This document shows, in pieces, positions 13,043-32,960 of a stretch of 33,102 nucleotides of DNA; positions within the stretch are counted from its first letter, which is position 1; each line of letters begins with the position of its first letter. Made by a program: the position numbers and the translations under genes. The stretch spans positions 1 through 33,102 of the forward strand of contig VGLJ01000055.1 of NCBI GenBank assembly GCA_016866775.1. Direction: 5' to 3'. The notes under the pieces were generated by a model. That model searched no databases, had not been told where the DNA came from, and was given only the letters and a program-made list of their open reading frames with translations. This DNA is from Candidatus Rokuibacteriota bacterium (GTDB taxonomy: Bacteria > Methylomirabilota > Methylomirabilia > Rokubacteriales > CSP1-6).

Positions 13043-13890
13043 CGGGCATCACTCCGGCGTCGGATGATCTCACGCTCCGGGTCGGTGACTTCGAAGGCCC
13101 GCTCGACCTCCTCCTGCATCTCTGCCGCACCAACGAGATCGATCTGGCCGCGCTGCCGGTGCGGACGATCACCGACCAGTACCTCGCGCACCTCGAGGCG
13201 GTCGAGTTCCGCGACCTCGAGACCGCGGGCGCCTATCTCGTGATGGCGGCCACGCTCATCTACCTGAAGTCCAAGCTGCTGGTGCCGCCGGACGAGAACG
13301 CGGTCGAGGAGCTCGACGACGACGCGCTCGCGCTCAAGCAGGAGCTGGAAGAGCGGCTGCGCGAGTACGCGCGCGTGAAGGCGCTGGGCGGGCTGCTCGC
13401 CGAGCGCGAGGCCGCGCAGGCGCTCTCGTGGGGCCGGCCGGGCAGCCAGCTGCCGTCGGCGGACGACATCCCGCTCGAAGACCTGAGCGTGCACCTGCTG
13501 GAGCGCTCGCTCGCGCGTCTCATCGAGGAACAGGCACGCCGCAAGCCGCGCGAGATCGAGCCCAACCCACCCTCGGTCCTCGAGCGGATGACCGAGATCC
13601 TCACGCTGCTGCGCGACACGTGGTCGATGCTGTTCTCCACCCTCGCGGGCGGCGAGCGCCGGCGCGCCGACGTGGTGACGACGCTCCTCGCGGTGCTCGA
13701 GCTCGTGCGTCAGGGCCGGATCCGCGCGCAGCAGACGGAGCTCTTCGGAGAAATCGTGCTGGAACGCCAGCAGACGGAGATGTCCTTCCCGATCGAAAAC
13801 CTCGAGACCCTTGGCAGTCGCGGAGGGTCCGGATTCACTCCGGACCCGGAGCGTGGGGGGCTTGGGGGGTCCGTCTCGGACCCCCCATAG
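13039..13890 (+). CDS. scpA: Segregation and condensation protein A
   Basis: ScpA is the kleisin that bridges the SMC heads and recruits ScpB. The N-terminal FEGPLDLLLHLCRTNEIDL and LPVRTITDQYLAHLE, then ETAGAYLVMAATLIYLKSKLLVP, are diagnostic. A C-terminal winged-helix segment (DVVTTLLAVLELVRQGRIRAQQTELFGEI) would bind the SMC cap. GTG start in a GTGA overlap with trpS. The true family sequence ends near EMSFPIEN; the last ~25 residues (LGSRGGSGFTPDPERGGLGG and onward) are encoded by the two-hairpin repeat at 13813-13888, and the stop TAG is made at its end. scpB follows after eight bases. Confidence 0.95.
   Translation: MTGITPASDDLTLRVGDFEGPLDLLLHLCRTNEIDLAALPVRTITDQYLAHLEAVEFRDLETAGAYLVMAATLIYLKSKLLVPPDENAVEELDDDALALKQELEERLREYARVKALGGLLAEREAAQALSWGRPGSQLPSADDIPLEDLSVHLLERSLARLIEEQARRKPREIEPNPPSVLERMTEILTLLRDTWSMLFSTLAGGERRRADVVTTLLAVLELVRQGRIRAQQTELFGEIVLERQQTEMSFPIENLETLGSRGGSGFTPDPERGGLGGSVSDPP
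13813..13888 (+). repeat. Two-hairpin G-run palindromic element, copy B
   Basis: Hairpin 1: GGGTCCGGA (13825-13833), loop TTCAC, TCCGGACCC (13839-13847), nine perfect pairs. Hairpin 2: 13863-13887, eleven pairs, loop TCT, again overlapping a GGGGGG-CTT-GGGGGG double run. It encodes the last 25 residues of ScpA in a different reading frame from copy A. The scpB ribosome binding site begins at its right edge. Confidence 0.88.
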
Positions 13891-23051: not shown

Positions 23052-25796
23052 TCCCGCGCTCACGCCGATGATGACGCAGTACCGCGAGCTCAAGCAGCGG
23101 TATCCCGACTTCATGCTGCTGTTCCGGCTCGGCGACTTCTACGAGCTGTTCCTCGAGGATGCCGAGCGGGGTGCCAGGATCCTGTCGATCACGCTGACCT
23201 CGCGGCAAGGCGCGCCGATGGCGGGCATCCCGCACCACGCGGCGGAGAGCTACATCGCGCGCTTGATCCAGGCGGGGCAGAAGGTCGCGATCTGCGAGCA
23301 GATGGAGGCGCCGGGCAAGGGCAAGAAGCTCCTGCGCCGGCAAGTGGTTCGCGTGGTCACGCCGGGCACGGTGACCGACACCGCGTACCTCGCGGGCGGC
23401 ACGAACAACTTCCTGCTCGCGGTCGTTCGCGCGCGTGAAGGGACGGGCGTCGCGCTCGTCGACGTCTCGACCGGCGAGTTCTGGGCGGGCGAGGACACGG
23501 CCGCGGACGACGGCGTGCTCGCCGCCGCGCTGCTGCGCCGGCCGTCCGAGATCGTGCTGCCGGAGTCGCTGCGCGAGGCGACCGACCTGCTCGCGCGGCT
23601 CACGGCGACCGGCGCGACGCTGAGCTTCACGGACGCCGCGAGCTTCGGCGGCCGCCGCGCCGGTGCCGAGCTGTGCGCACACTTCGGCGTGAGCAGTCTC
23701 GAGCCGTTCGGCGTCGGCGGGCTCACCGTCGGGCTGCAGGCGGCCGCGGGGGCGCTCGGCTATCTCCGAGCGACCCAGGGCGACGCGCTCGGGCACCTCA
23801 CGCGGCTGCAGCGCCTGCACACCGGTGACGCGCTCGCGCTGGATGCGACGGCGGTGGTGACCCTGGAGCTGATCGAGGCGAGCGCCGGCGGTGCGCGCGG
23901 CTCGCTCTTCGGCGTGCTGGACGAGACCGTGACGCCGATGGGCGCGCGCCTCCTCCGCCAGTGGATGCTGCGGCCGCTCCTCGATCCGGATGCCATCCGC
24001 GCGCGACAGGACGCGATCGCCGCGCTGGTCGAGGCGCCCGCGGTGCGCGACCAGCTTCGCCGCCTCCTCCGCCGCGTCGGCGATCTCGAGCGTCTCACGA
24101 GCCGCGCGATCCTGGGCTTGGCACACGCGCGCGACCTGGTAGGCCTCCGGACGTGCCTTGACCCTCTGGACGACATCCGAAGGGCGTGCGCTGCGCTGAG
24201 CGGTCCCATCGGTAACGCCCCGGGCGGGGCGGTAGCGGGGGCGGCGGATCGGGAGGGCGGGTCGGCGACAACCGCAGGCTCTGCGAGGACAGGAGCCGAT
24301 ACGCCCTCCCGATCCGCCGTCCCCGCCACCGCGCTACTCGAGACGGCACGCGAAGAGATCGCACCGCTGGCCGACGTGCGCGCCCTGCTGAACGACGCCC
24401 TGGAGGACGAGCCGCCGCTGACGCTCCACGACGGCGGCTTGATCCGCGAGGGATGGGACGAGCGCCTCGGCGCGATCGTCACCGAGGCGCGCGAGGCGCG
24501 CGAGTGGATCGCCGGCCTCGAGGAGCGCGAGCGCGCGCGGACCGGCATCGGCAGCCTCCGCGTCCGGTTCAACCGCGTCTTCGGCTACGGCATCGAGGTC
24601 ACGCACGCGCAGGCGGCGCGCGTCCCCGACGACTACGTGCGGCGGCAGACGCTCGCGGGCGCCGAGCGCTACGTGACCACCGAGCTGAAGGAGTACGAAG
24701 CGAAGGTGCTCGGGGCGGACGAGCGCCGCCGCAGGCTCGAGTACGACCTCTTCGACGACGTGCGCCGCCGCGTGGCCGGGCACGCGGTCGCGCTGCTCGC
24801 CACCGCGCGCGCGCTCGCGCGCCTCGACGTGTTCGCGGCGCTCGCGGAGGTCGCCCACGTGCGCGGCCACGTGCGGCCGGTGGTCGATCGCGGCGACGCC
24901 CTGGTCATCACCGAGGGGCGCCATCCCGTACTGGAGGCGCGCGCCGAGGCGCCGGTGACCGCGAACGACCTGGCGCTGGACGACGCCGCGCGGATCGTCA
25001 TCCTCACGGGCCCGAACATGGCCGGCAAGTCCGTCTACCTCCGTCAGACCGGCCACATCGTGCTCATGGCGCAGATGGGCGCCTTCGTCCCCGCGCGCGA
25101 GGCGCGCATCGGCGTGGTCGATCGGCTCTTCACGCGCGTCGGGGCGCAGGACAACCTGAGCCGGGGGCAGTCGACCTTCCTCGTGGAGATGGTGGAGACC
25201 GCGACGATCCTCAACAACGTCACGCCGCGCAGCCTCGTGCTGCTCGACGAGGTCGGCCGGGGCACCTCGACCTTCGACGGGCTCGCGATCGCGTGGGCGG
25301 TGGTGGAGGCGCTCCACGATGCGTGCGGTGGTGGGCCACGCGAGCGGGCGGCGGCAGAGCCGCCGGGAGCCCGCGAGTTCATGGACCGCCCCGGGCCCGC
25401 GAGTCCAAAGGTCCTCTTCGCGACGCACTTCCACGAGCTGACGCAGCTCGCGGATCGGCTCGCCGGCGTCCGTAACTTCCACGTCGCCGTCCGGGAGTGG
25501 AACGACGAGATCATCTTCCTCCACAAGGTCCGCGCCGGATCTACCGATCGGAGCTACGGAATCCAGGTGGCGCGCCTCGCCGGGCTGCCGGCGCCGGTCA
25601 TCGCCCGCGCGAAGGCGCTCCTCGCGGAGCTGGAAGCCACCGGCAACCAGCGCGCCGACGTCGCCGACGCCGAGCAGCTCGGGCTGTTCGTCGCGCCGCG
25701 CGACCCGATCGTGACCGAGCTCGCGCACCTCGACCTCGCGCACGTCACGCCGATCGAGGCGTTGAACCTGCTCGCGAAGTGGCAGGCGCGACAGAC

Positions 25797-27516: not shown

Positions 27517-28500
27517 ATGACGCTGCCGCTGCTCGTGATCGCGGGACCCACCGGCGTCGGGAAGACCGCCACCGCCGTCGCCCTGGGCCGTCGCGTGCCG
27601 CTCGAGGTCGTCAGCGCCGATTCGCGCCAGGTCTACCGGTTCATGGACGTCGCCACCGGCAAGCCGTCGCCCGAGCAGCGCGCGGCGGTCCGGCATCACC
27701 TGATCGACGTGGTCGACCCGGACGACCGGTATCAGGCCGCCCGCTTCCGCGAGGACGCTGCCGCCGCGATCGCGGACATCCACCGGCGCGGCAAGCTCCC
27801 CGCGGTGGTGGGCGGCACCGGGCTCTACATTCGCGCGCTGCTGCGGGGGCTCGACCCCGCGCCGCCGGCGGACCTCGCGTTCCGTCACGAGCTGACCGCC
27901 GTGGCCGCGCGCGAGGGACGGGGAGCGCTGCACGCGCGTCTCGCGCGGACGGCGCCGACGGTGGCGCGCCGGCTGCATCCGCACGACGACGTGCGGGTGA
28001 TTCGCGCGCTGGAAAAGCTGCGCGCGGGCCATGGCGTGGAAGCGCGCGCGTGGAGTCCGGCGCGTGACACGCGCGCGGACGGCTACGACGTCGCGTTCGT
28101 CGGGCTCACGATGGAGCGGGGCGCGCTCAACGCGCGGCTCGAAGCGCGCGCGGCGGCGATGGCGCGCGGCGGGTTGATGGACGAGGTGCGGGCGCTGCTG
28201 GCGCGCGGCTACGACGCGCGACTGTCGGCGCTCCAGGGCATCGGCTATCGGGAGTTCGTCCGCGTGGTGCGCGGCGAGCTCGCGGAAGCCGAAGCGATCC
28301 GGCTCATGCAGCGCGACACCGTGCGCTACGCGAAGCGCCAGCACACGTGGTTCGCGCGCGAGCCGGAGGTCGCGTGGCTGGACGTGACGGGTGACGAGGA
28401 CGTGGAGACGAGCGCGACACGCATCATGAGCGTCTTGAACCAGAGGGGGTTTGGGGGTCCTCAGTTGTGTGGCCCCCATGTCCAGGGAGGACTCATCTGA
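27517..28500 (+). CDS. miaA: tRNA dimethylallyltransferase
   Basis: MiaA prenylates A37 of tRNAs that read UNN codons. The P-loop GPTGVGKT (10-17), SADSRQVYRFMDVATGKPS, HHLIDVVDPDDRYQAARF, VVGGTGLYIRALLRG and a late QGIGYREF and RYAKRQHTWF are all present. The start ATG 27517 has AAGGA four bases upstream; an in-frame TTG seven codons earlier is less likely. The last ~18 residues (QRGFGGPQLCGPHVQGGLI) are encoded by a G-run repeat (28443-28485), extending the protein beyond its normal end. The stop forms a CTGA overlap with the proposed hflX start. miaA next to hflX and mutL is a conserved grouping. Confidence 0.95.
   Translation: MTLPLLVIAGPTGVGKTATAVALGRRVPLEVVSADSRQVYRFMDVATGKPSPEQRAAVRHHLIDVVDPDDRYQAARFREDAAAAIADIHRRGKLPAVVGGTGLYIRALLRGLDPAPPADLAFRHELTAVAAREGRGALHARLARTAPTVARRLHPHDDVRVIRALEKLRAGHGVEARAWSPARDTRADGYDVAFVGLTMERGALNARLEARAAAMARGGLMDEVRALLARGYDARLSALQGIGYREFVRVVRGELAEAEAIRLMQRDTVRYAKRQHTWFAREPEVAWLDVTGDEDVETSATRIMSVLNQRGFGGPQLCGPHVQGGLI
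28443..28485 (+). repeat. G-run element at the miaA 3' end, copy E
   Basis: GAGGGGG-TTT-GGGGG-TCC is followed by a loop and GGCCCCCATGTCCAG. The G-run and C-run pair as TGGGGGTC with GGCCCCCA (eight pairs, one wobble). The block is homologous to the reverse complement of 32095-32135 (three substitutions and a few one-base gaps in ~40 bases). It encodes the MiaA tail and lies just before the hflX ribosome binding site. Confidence 0.75.
28484..28499 (+). promoter_or_regulatory. Strong ribosome binding site with CUG start for hflX
   Basis: AGGGAGG (28484-28490) is followed after six bases by CTG (28497-28499), in frame with hflX and overlapping the miaA TGA as CTGA. Neither in-frame GTG (28467 or 28551) has a comparable Shine-Dalgarno sequence. 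Confidence 0.6.
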
Positions 28501-31530: not shown

Positions 31531-32960
31531 GTGCCGGCGGCCGCACGCTCGTTCGTCCCGTCATCGCCATCGTCGGGCGCCCGAACGTGGGCAAGTCCAC
31601 GCTCTTCAACCGCCTGGTCGGGCGGCGCCAGTCGCTCGTGCGCGACGTGCCCGGTGTCACGCGCGATCGCCTCTACGGGCAGGTGACGTTCGAGCGATGG
31701 CAGGCGACGGCGATCGACACCGGCGGCTTCGACCCCTTGTCCACCGAGCCGCTGATCGAGGCCGTGCGGCGCCAGGTCGACGCCGCGATCGCGGAGGCGG
31801 ACCTCGTGCTGTTCGTCGTCGACGCGCGTGCCGGGGTCACCGCGCTCGATCTCGAGATCGCCGGCCTGCTCCGGCGCTGCGGGCGTCCCGTGATCCTCGT
31901 CGCGAACAAGGTCGAGAGCGACGCGCAGACGGCCGCGCTCGCGGAGCTCTTCACGCTCGGCCTCGGCGAGCCGGTGCCGGTGTCCGCCGAGCACGGCCGC
32001 GGCGTCGGCGAGCTGCTCGAGATCGCGCGCGACCGCGCGCCGCGCGCCCCGCTACGGAAGCCGGAGCAAGGCCCTTTGGACATGGGGCCCGCCTCTGAAC
32101 ATGGGGCCCCACACCTGAAGGACCCCAAACCCCTCTCGAGGACCCCAATCCCTCATGTCGCGATCATCGGACGGCCGAACGCCGGCAAGTCGTCGCTCGT
32201 CAACGCGATGGTCGGCGGCGAGCGGGTGCTCGTGCACGAGGCGCCCGGCACGACGCGCGATGCCGTCGACACGGCGATCGAGGTCGACGGCCGCCCGTAC
32301 GTGCTCGTCGACACGGCGGGGATCCGGCGCAAGGGCCGCGTGAGCGAGGCGCTGGAGAAGCTGTCCGTCGTCATGGCGCTGAAGAGCCTCGAGCGCTGCC
32401 AGGTCGCGCTGATCGTCGTCGACGCCAGCGAAGGGCTCGCCGCGCAGGACGCGCACATCGCGGGGTACGCGCACGAGGCCGGGCGCGCGAGCGTGATCGT
32501 CGTCAACAAATGGGACCTCGTCCCGCCGGGCATGGTGCGCAAGGCCGAGGTGATCGAGCAGATCCGCGAGCGCCTGTCGTTCCTCGACTACGCGCCGATC
32601 TGCTTCACGTCGGCGCTGCGCGGCGAGGGGCTCGACGATCTCTTCACGACCATCGACGAGGTCGCGCGCGCGGCGCGCCGCCGCGTGCCGGCCATGGACG
32701 TCACGCGCGTCGTGCGCGAGGCGATCGACCGGCGGCCGATCTCGGTGGGTGGCGCGCCGCTCACGCTGCAGGCGGCGGCGCAGGTGAGCGTGGAGCCCCC
32801 GACGTTCGCGCTGCGCGTGAACCGCCCCGACGAGGTGCACTTCTCGTACGAGCGCTATCTCGTGAAGTCGCTGCGGCGCGTCTTCGACTTCACCGGATCG
32901 CCCGTGCGCCTGTCGCTGCGCAAGGCGACCGGGCCGCGCGCGCGGAGGGTCGAGCGCTGA
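31527..32960 (+). CDS. der: Double-domain ribosome assembly GTPase Der (EngA)
   Basis: Der binds the 50S subunit during maturation and carries two tandem G domains and a C-terminal KH-like domain. First G domain: IVGRPNVGKSTLFNRL, DTGGF, NKVE. Second: IIGRPNAGKSSLVNAM, DTAGIRRKG, NKWDL. The KH-like end runs to LRKATGPRARR. GTG 31527 overlaps the DUF512 stop (GTGA), giving 477 residues. The linker between the G domains (about 182-210; GPLDMGPASEHGAPHL and onward) is not the usual acidic linker but the translation of an inverted G/C-run repeat (32071-32148). All GTPase motifs remain. The stop gives a second CTGA junction. Confidence 0.95.
   Translation: MSAGGRTLVRPVIAIVGRPNVGKSTLFNRLVGRRQSLVRDVPGVTRDRLYGQVTFERWQATAIDTGGFDPLSTEPLIEAVRRQVDAAIAEADLVLFVVDARAGVTALDLEIAGLLRRCGRPVILVANKVESDAQTAALAELFTLGLGEPVPVSAEHGRGVGELLEIARDRAPRAPLRKPEQGPLDMGPASEHGAPHLKDPKPLSRTPIPHVAIIGRPNAGKSSLVNAMVGGERVLVHEAPGTTRDAVDTAIEVDGRPYVLVDTAGIRRKGRVSEALEKLSVVMALKSLERCQVALIVVDASEGLAAQDAHIAGYAHEAGRASVIVVNKWDLVPPGMVRKAEVIEQIRERLSFLDYAPICFTSALRGEGLDDLFTTIDEVARAARRRVPAMDVTRVVREAIDRRPISVGGAPLTLQAAAQVSVEPPTFALRVNRPDEVHFSYERYLVKSLRRVFDFTGSPVRLSLRKATGPRARRVER
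32071..32148 (-). repeat. Inverted G/C-run element in the Der linker, copy F
   Basis: The minus strand of 32095-32135 matches copy E. The block also holds internal direct repeats: ACATGGGGCCC twice (32080-32090 and 32099-32109) and AGGACCCCAA twice (32119-32128 and 32139-32148, exactly 20 bases apart). It is read through in frame and forms the hinge between the two GTPase domains. Confidence 0.75.
32944..32959 (+). promoter_or_regulatory. Strong ribosome binding site with CUG start for the last ORF
   Basis: GGAGGG (32944-32949), inside the der 3' end, lies seven bases before CTG 32957, which overlaps the der TGA as CTGA. The arrangement mirrors the hflX start. Confidence 0.5.

Follow-up and report, generated by a model that had tools for sequence, protein, structure and literature searches.

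The window analysed here is a stretch of 33,102 nucleotides (contig VGLJ01000055.1) from a Candidatus Rokuibacteriota bacterium, and within it lies a mutS gene that carries, in frame, an insert built around a long hairpin (Table 1). We found that this hairpin is by far the strongest of the window, with a score of 26 against 14 for the runner-up and at most 14 in shuffled sequences. As DNA it folds at -69.3 kcal/mol, whereas shuffled sequences give -48.3 ± 3.05 (z = -6.9) and none of 200 is as low. An initial annotation had described 36-nt arms, paired at 32 positions around a 28-nt loop with its own 5-bp stem and with a 6-bp hairpin abutting the left side. The hairpin finder recovers these arms (24231-24266 and 24295-24330, with 32 pairs) and extends them to 38 nt (24229-24266 and 24295-24332), finder and fold both give the loop with its inner stem, and the small hairpin is present at 24216-24231. 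The palindrome had also been called perfect, which it is not: 34 of the 38 positions pair and 4 are mismatches. The in-frame placement in mutS holds; the insert is slightly longer than the 115 bases first given and spans 42 codons. As annotated, E. coli MutS has only a few residues at this place, the alignment ending at E. coli residue 382 ahead of the insert and restarting at 388 behind it, and the proposed comparison with other mutS genes showed that none of 28 relatives has residues there. Judged from these alignments, the insert lengthens a loop, probably a surface loop, of MutS domain III, the core domain.

Table 1. Features of the mutS gene and its inserts (positions in the window).
Feature	Position	Strand	Basis or remark
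mutS open reading frame, 918 aa	23044..25800	+	Pfam MutS I-V; E. coli MutS E=5e-182
42-codon in-frame insert, residues 389-430	24208..24333 (ends ± few codons)	+	missing in 28/28 relatives
6-bp hairpin CGCCCC-GGGC-GGGGCG, inside insert, adjoining left arm	24216..24231	.
Left (5') arm of palindrome, G-rich, 38 nt	24229..24266	+	hairpin finder
Family A conserved loop, 28 nt	24267..24294	+	core 24272-24293 identical at 9 genomic places
Inner stem within the loop, mutS copy, 5 bp	24273-24277/24281-24285	+
Right (3') arm of palindrome, C-rich, 38 nt	24295..24332	+	hairpin finder
Second private in-frame insert, MutS domain V, ~25 codons	25330..25404	+	missing in all aligned relatives

The initial annotation had suggested searching for the arms genome-wide. 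When the complete genome (5.13 Mb, 159 contigs) was searched for the mutS insert, the matches were centred on the loop, GACATCCGCAGGCTCTGCGAGGACAGGA, which defines family A; the loop recurs, but the outer arms found only short matches (23 and 20 nt). The 22-nt core of this loop occurs 15 times at no more than 2 mismatches, against 0 occurrences of a control pattern. Two of these occurrences (C61/C34) are halves of one hairpin split at contig ends, which leaves 14 hairpins; in another hairpin split in this way, C58 supplies the half absent from C80. A 16th place, with 3 mismatches to the core (L031), looks like chance. Every copy with assembled flanks has a near-perfect stem of 35-49 bp, the mutS copy being among the least perfect. 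The inner 15 bp of the stems are related between copies (local score 8.1 versus 5.1 shuffled); the outer part stays at the level of composition (9.0 versus 8.5, s.d. 1.8) and differs locus by locus. Besides mutS, family A stands in frame within ggt, immediately before the conserved CTTH segment, which we take to hold the autoprocessing threonine; within the lipoyl/E3-binding linker of a 2-oxoacid dehydrogenase E2; within a linker of a GlpC-like iron-sulphur protein (C58/C80, contig ends rejoined); and within a thiamine pyrophosphate (TPP) enzyme (C61/C34, likewise rejoined). Copies L016, L017, L024 and L028 lie between convergent genes, often a few bases from the stop codons. At L028 an 8-bp direct repeat, GCTAGCTC, fits insertion at overlapping convergent stops, yet it can pair within the stem; this repeat and TAAGCG at L016 are two candidates for target-site duplication in the family, and the flanks of the mutS copy hold no direct repeat of at least 6 nt. 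Hairpins of family A are found at or near the ends of contigs C34, C41, C58, C61, C80 and C81, where the long palindromes probably broke the assembly, so that the copy number may be underestimated. The core was found in none of 39 other genomes, 23 of them from the same taxonomic family, and its pattern has a single match in the GTDB collection, which may omit this genome; that match, in Streptomonospora (L032), looks like chance.

In two relatives, the same linker of ggt holds a hairpin with another shared loop, TCYGCTCGGAACGACACTCGC, which we call family B. This loop is present in 20 of the 60 genomes of the order and in 11 of 27 genera, with ~105 matches over all 60 genomes versus ~14 for a reversed control pattern. 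Among the copies in 60 stretches fetched around these matches, most are hairpins of ~15-30 bp with locus-specific stems and a minority are decayed. According to a GC-phase classifier, which is approximate, 34 of 52 scorable copies are in frame inside open reading frames (ORFs); orthologues are counted separately here, and ~20 distinct ORF loci lie behind the 34 copies. All six reading frames are used, and most of the ORF-borne copies fall between Pfam domains. The hosts include DNA polymerase I, LigD, MutS2, PriA, ABC-F, CobB and radical SAM proteins, as well as E2, POR, a CoA ligase and, in its middle, an MFS transporter. Among the hosts are several proteins of DNA replication or repair (MutS2, DNA polymerase I, LigD and PriA for family B, MutS for family A), which may say no more than that large multi-domain proteins offer linkers. 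At one locus, family B is present in one genome of a genus and absent from another (L239 versus L175). Candidate target-site duplications show a slight excess in family B, which composition could explain. The 5' arm is G-rich in 51 of 52 copies of family B and, with a skew of at least 0.2, in 13 of 14 of family A; because the 5' arm of a palindrome is identical on both strands, this is a property of composition, and strand asymmetry was rejected as a signal of direction. Additionally, further long hairpins that have different loops, and of which most are G-rich in the 5' arm, occur in this genome (L064:4695-4824 and L079:1-69) and in relatives (L310:4790-4869 and L313:13709-13814, the loop of the latter resembling a B variant); they are possibly further loop families.

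Comparison of orthologous copies of family B, whose flanks are 77-92% identical, gives loops that are 78-100% identical and stems in which changed-but-still-matching pairs are about as frequent as broken pairs. Of the 25 pairs in the hairpin of rsmE (a gene name assigned from its sequence), which three genera retain, 7 carry changes on both sides; its covariation is 0.248, versus 0.082 when shuffled and at most 0.09 when slid. Also, among three genomes a third to half of the positions in the ggt stems differ, and these stems are still nearly perfect. Since the stems of family B covary, its loop is nearly fixed and six frames are used, the conserved unit is the loop with its hairpin, as DNA or RNA, and not a peptide. 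The use of six frames led us to reject peptide conservation, and the opposite pattern named in the initial annotation, a peptide kept while the hairpin is broken, was not found: relatives are without the peptide. That annotation had proposed that the hairpin is either recent or maintained. Maintenance is borne out for the class by these compensatory changes; a recent origin of the mutS copy is not favoured, because it has more stem mismatches than most of family A and a loop variant. Past the stem ends, palindromic similarity (one flank versus the reverse complement of the other) fades gradually, at 0.39 versus 0.28 in the control for family A and 0.36 versus 0.31 for family B. This is expected of stems that lengthen or shorten through copying across the hairpin. 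Published work reports that template switching homogenises the arms of inverted repeats and both creates and maintains hairpins (PMC8604942, PMC8794818, PMC6649704). It may also act on the stems described here.

We consider, with a probability of about three in four, that the mutS hairpin is one copy of a dispersed insertion element that is small and non-coding and consists of a long, nearly perfect stem capped by a conserved loop. The best description we can give is a non-autonomous insertion element like the Rickettsia palindromic elements. It seems to be, or to have been, mobile and non-autonomous; mobility is suggested by the empty mutS site in 28 relatives, the difference between L239 and L175 and the occupation of unrelated loci. 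A putative enzyme recognising the loop in the hairpin would move the element, and copies would survive where they are harmless, as in in-frame linkers, surface loops and gaps between convergent genes. Hairpin-templated correction (quasi-palindrome template switching), to which selection for structure may add, would preserve the complementarity of the arms and also lengthen and renew them; outer stems would in this way come to differ between loci, and the loop would remain constant. As for mutS, a surface loop in the core domain would tolerate the element, which most likely has no regulatory role there. Some points weigh against this explanation. PF01797 (Y1/RAYT), the only transposase family searched, has no match in this genome and has matches in 5 of 14 control genomes; mobilisation by RAYT was therefore rejected. 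Signals of target-site duplication amount to the two candidates of family A and the slight excess in family B that composition could explain. Mobility of family A would follow from its distribution only, in a single genome of the genus, and selection for structure, an alternative way of keeping the stems, would leave a pattern similar to that of templated repair.

The linkers of ggt, E2 and the GlpC-like protein carry loop A here and hairpins with loop B in relatives, at positions that agree within a few codons for ggt and E2. For E2, BLAST gaps had suggested that the hairpins of genera g4 and g5 occupy two separate positions, a reading that we rejected when alignment brought them to about the same position. 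In a MutS tree, this genome nests among genera that bear family B, with low support for the exact place and 0.97 for the larger clade. A tentative explanation is that the loop itself is the spreading unit, resident hairpins keeping their sites while loop and inner stem are replaced lineage-wide. The orthologues L274 and L246, which have a common outer stem and differ in inner stem and loop variant, count toward such replacement. Where A and B occur at the same gene, a direct comparison of their outer stems showed no likeness beyond composition. Either loops are replaced in this way, or the element has been inserted again independently, permissive linkers being hit repeatedly.

Other explanations of the hairpin were weighed against an insertion element. 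It seems rather unlikely that it is a structural RNA or DNA element selected for a host function, such as 3'-end processing, termination or recognition by a loop-binding protein, with the copies in ORFs as by-products. The almost invariant loop, the compensatory changes that preserve structure, the rsmE copy kept across three genera and the several A copies at stop codons between convergent genes would agree with such a function; however, most B copies are in frame within ORFs in either orientation, a T-tract is absent, no Rfam family reaches its gathering score at six loci, presence and absence differ within one genus, and the loop family varies by lineage. The initial annotation had also suggested that gain or loss of the hairpin could modulate repair, for which we found no support. 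That the in-frame insertion is reversible and tunes mismatch repair is very improbable, although the element does sit in mutS and slippage can delete hairpins, given that the same element is found in unrelated genes (like elements occupy ~20 unrelated ORF loci and gaps between convergent genes), that the mutS copy is without the flanking repeat that would favour precise excision, and that it occupies a loop site where its presence is probably neutral. Still less credit is due to an artefact of assembly or library, in which an inverted chimera formed around an adaptor-like loop. Several copies do lie at contig ends and family A is known from one assembly only, but the flanks exit the palindrome into different unique genes, the reading frames stay open, and family B, in independent genomes, is built in the same way and shows compensatory changes.

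Candidate sources of the sequence were also rejected. If the outer arms had been copied from other genomic DNA, the only traces would be the 23- and 20-nt matches, both in coding sequence, and the E-value of the former (3.9e-4) is weakened by GC-rich composition. An origin of one arm as an inverted copy of the target does not agree with the protein alignment, by which both arms belong to the mutS insert; likeness to the right flank is no more than weakly hinted at. For a viral origin, no exact match to the A or B loop was found in viral contigs.

The window holds other repeats as well. The second insert of mutS, in domain V, forms part of another dispersed repeat, short and palindromic, for which the genome has 22 matches. 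A third dispersed family, of ~76-90 nt with two hairpins (GGCAGTCGCGGAGGG-xxx-GGATTCACTCC-xxx-CCC... GGGGGG-xxxx-TCT), lies at 271-346 and 13813-13888 and is represented by six copies within 510 kb of the genome. At its ATTCACT loop, three variable stem pairs differ between copies and match in every copy, so this is again a conserved loop with a compensated stem. By eye only, EngA has an apparent in-frame extra segment, GPLDMGPASEHGAPHLKDPKPLS, at ~32040-32130, and the MiaA tail GPHVQGG at the MiaA/HflX junction (~28440-28500) looks similar to it; both stretches look like further repeats.

Rickettsia provides the best-known case of palindromes that invade genes in frame. The Rickettsia palindromic elements measure up to ~150 bp and lie in frame in many unrelated ORFs, whose proteins are apparently functional (PMC10969869, PMC6649704). 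Families A and B resemble them as in-frame palindromic insertions in unrelated ORFs, and differ in that they have no conserved peptide or preferred frame (six frames in family B) and their stems are unrelated between loci; only loop and inner stem are conserved here, probably in a different phylum. As repetitive extragenic palindromes (REP) and bacterial interspersed mosaic elements (BIME) do, they form short dispersed palindromes, also between convergent genes; unlike in the REP/RAYT system, there is no Y1 transposase (PF01797) in the genome, the stems are longer, the outer stems are not common to copies and most B copies are intragenic. With miniature inverted-repeat transposable elements (MITEs) they share a small, non-coding, dispersed, inverted-repeat architecture and presumably movement in trans, whereas terminal inverted repeats common to the copies were not found, target-site duplication is not clear and the search, which covered PF01797 only, gave no autonomous partner. 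The coding palindromes of Nematomorpha mitochondria (PMC6649704) are also long near-perfect inverted repeats in coding sequence, with template switching proposed for their arms, but they encode conserved host protein in both arms, while here an extra segment carries a family-specific loop. Within the open-access literature covered, families A and B look like a novel variety of in-frame palindromic element, with a fixed loop, a locus-specific compensated stem and independence from reading frame.

If this is true, in-frame palindromic insertion extends to another bacterial group and follows a different logic there, mostly in inter-domain linkers. The occurrence of one loop on many stems, at orthologous sites across genera, would provide many natural replicates for testing what keeps long palindromes perfect in bacteria and how linkers gain sequence. 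Furthermore, it calls for caution, as stem covariation, the usual sign of RNA function, can arise in a dispersed element.
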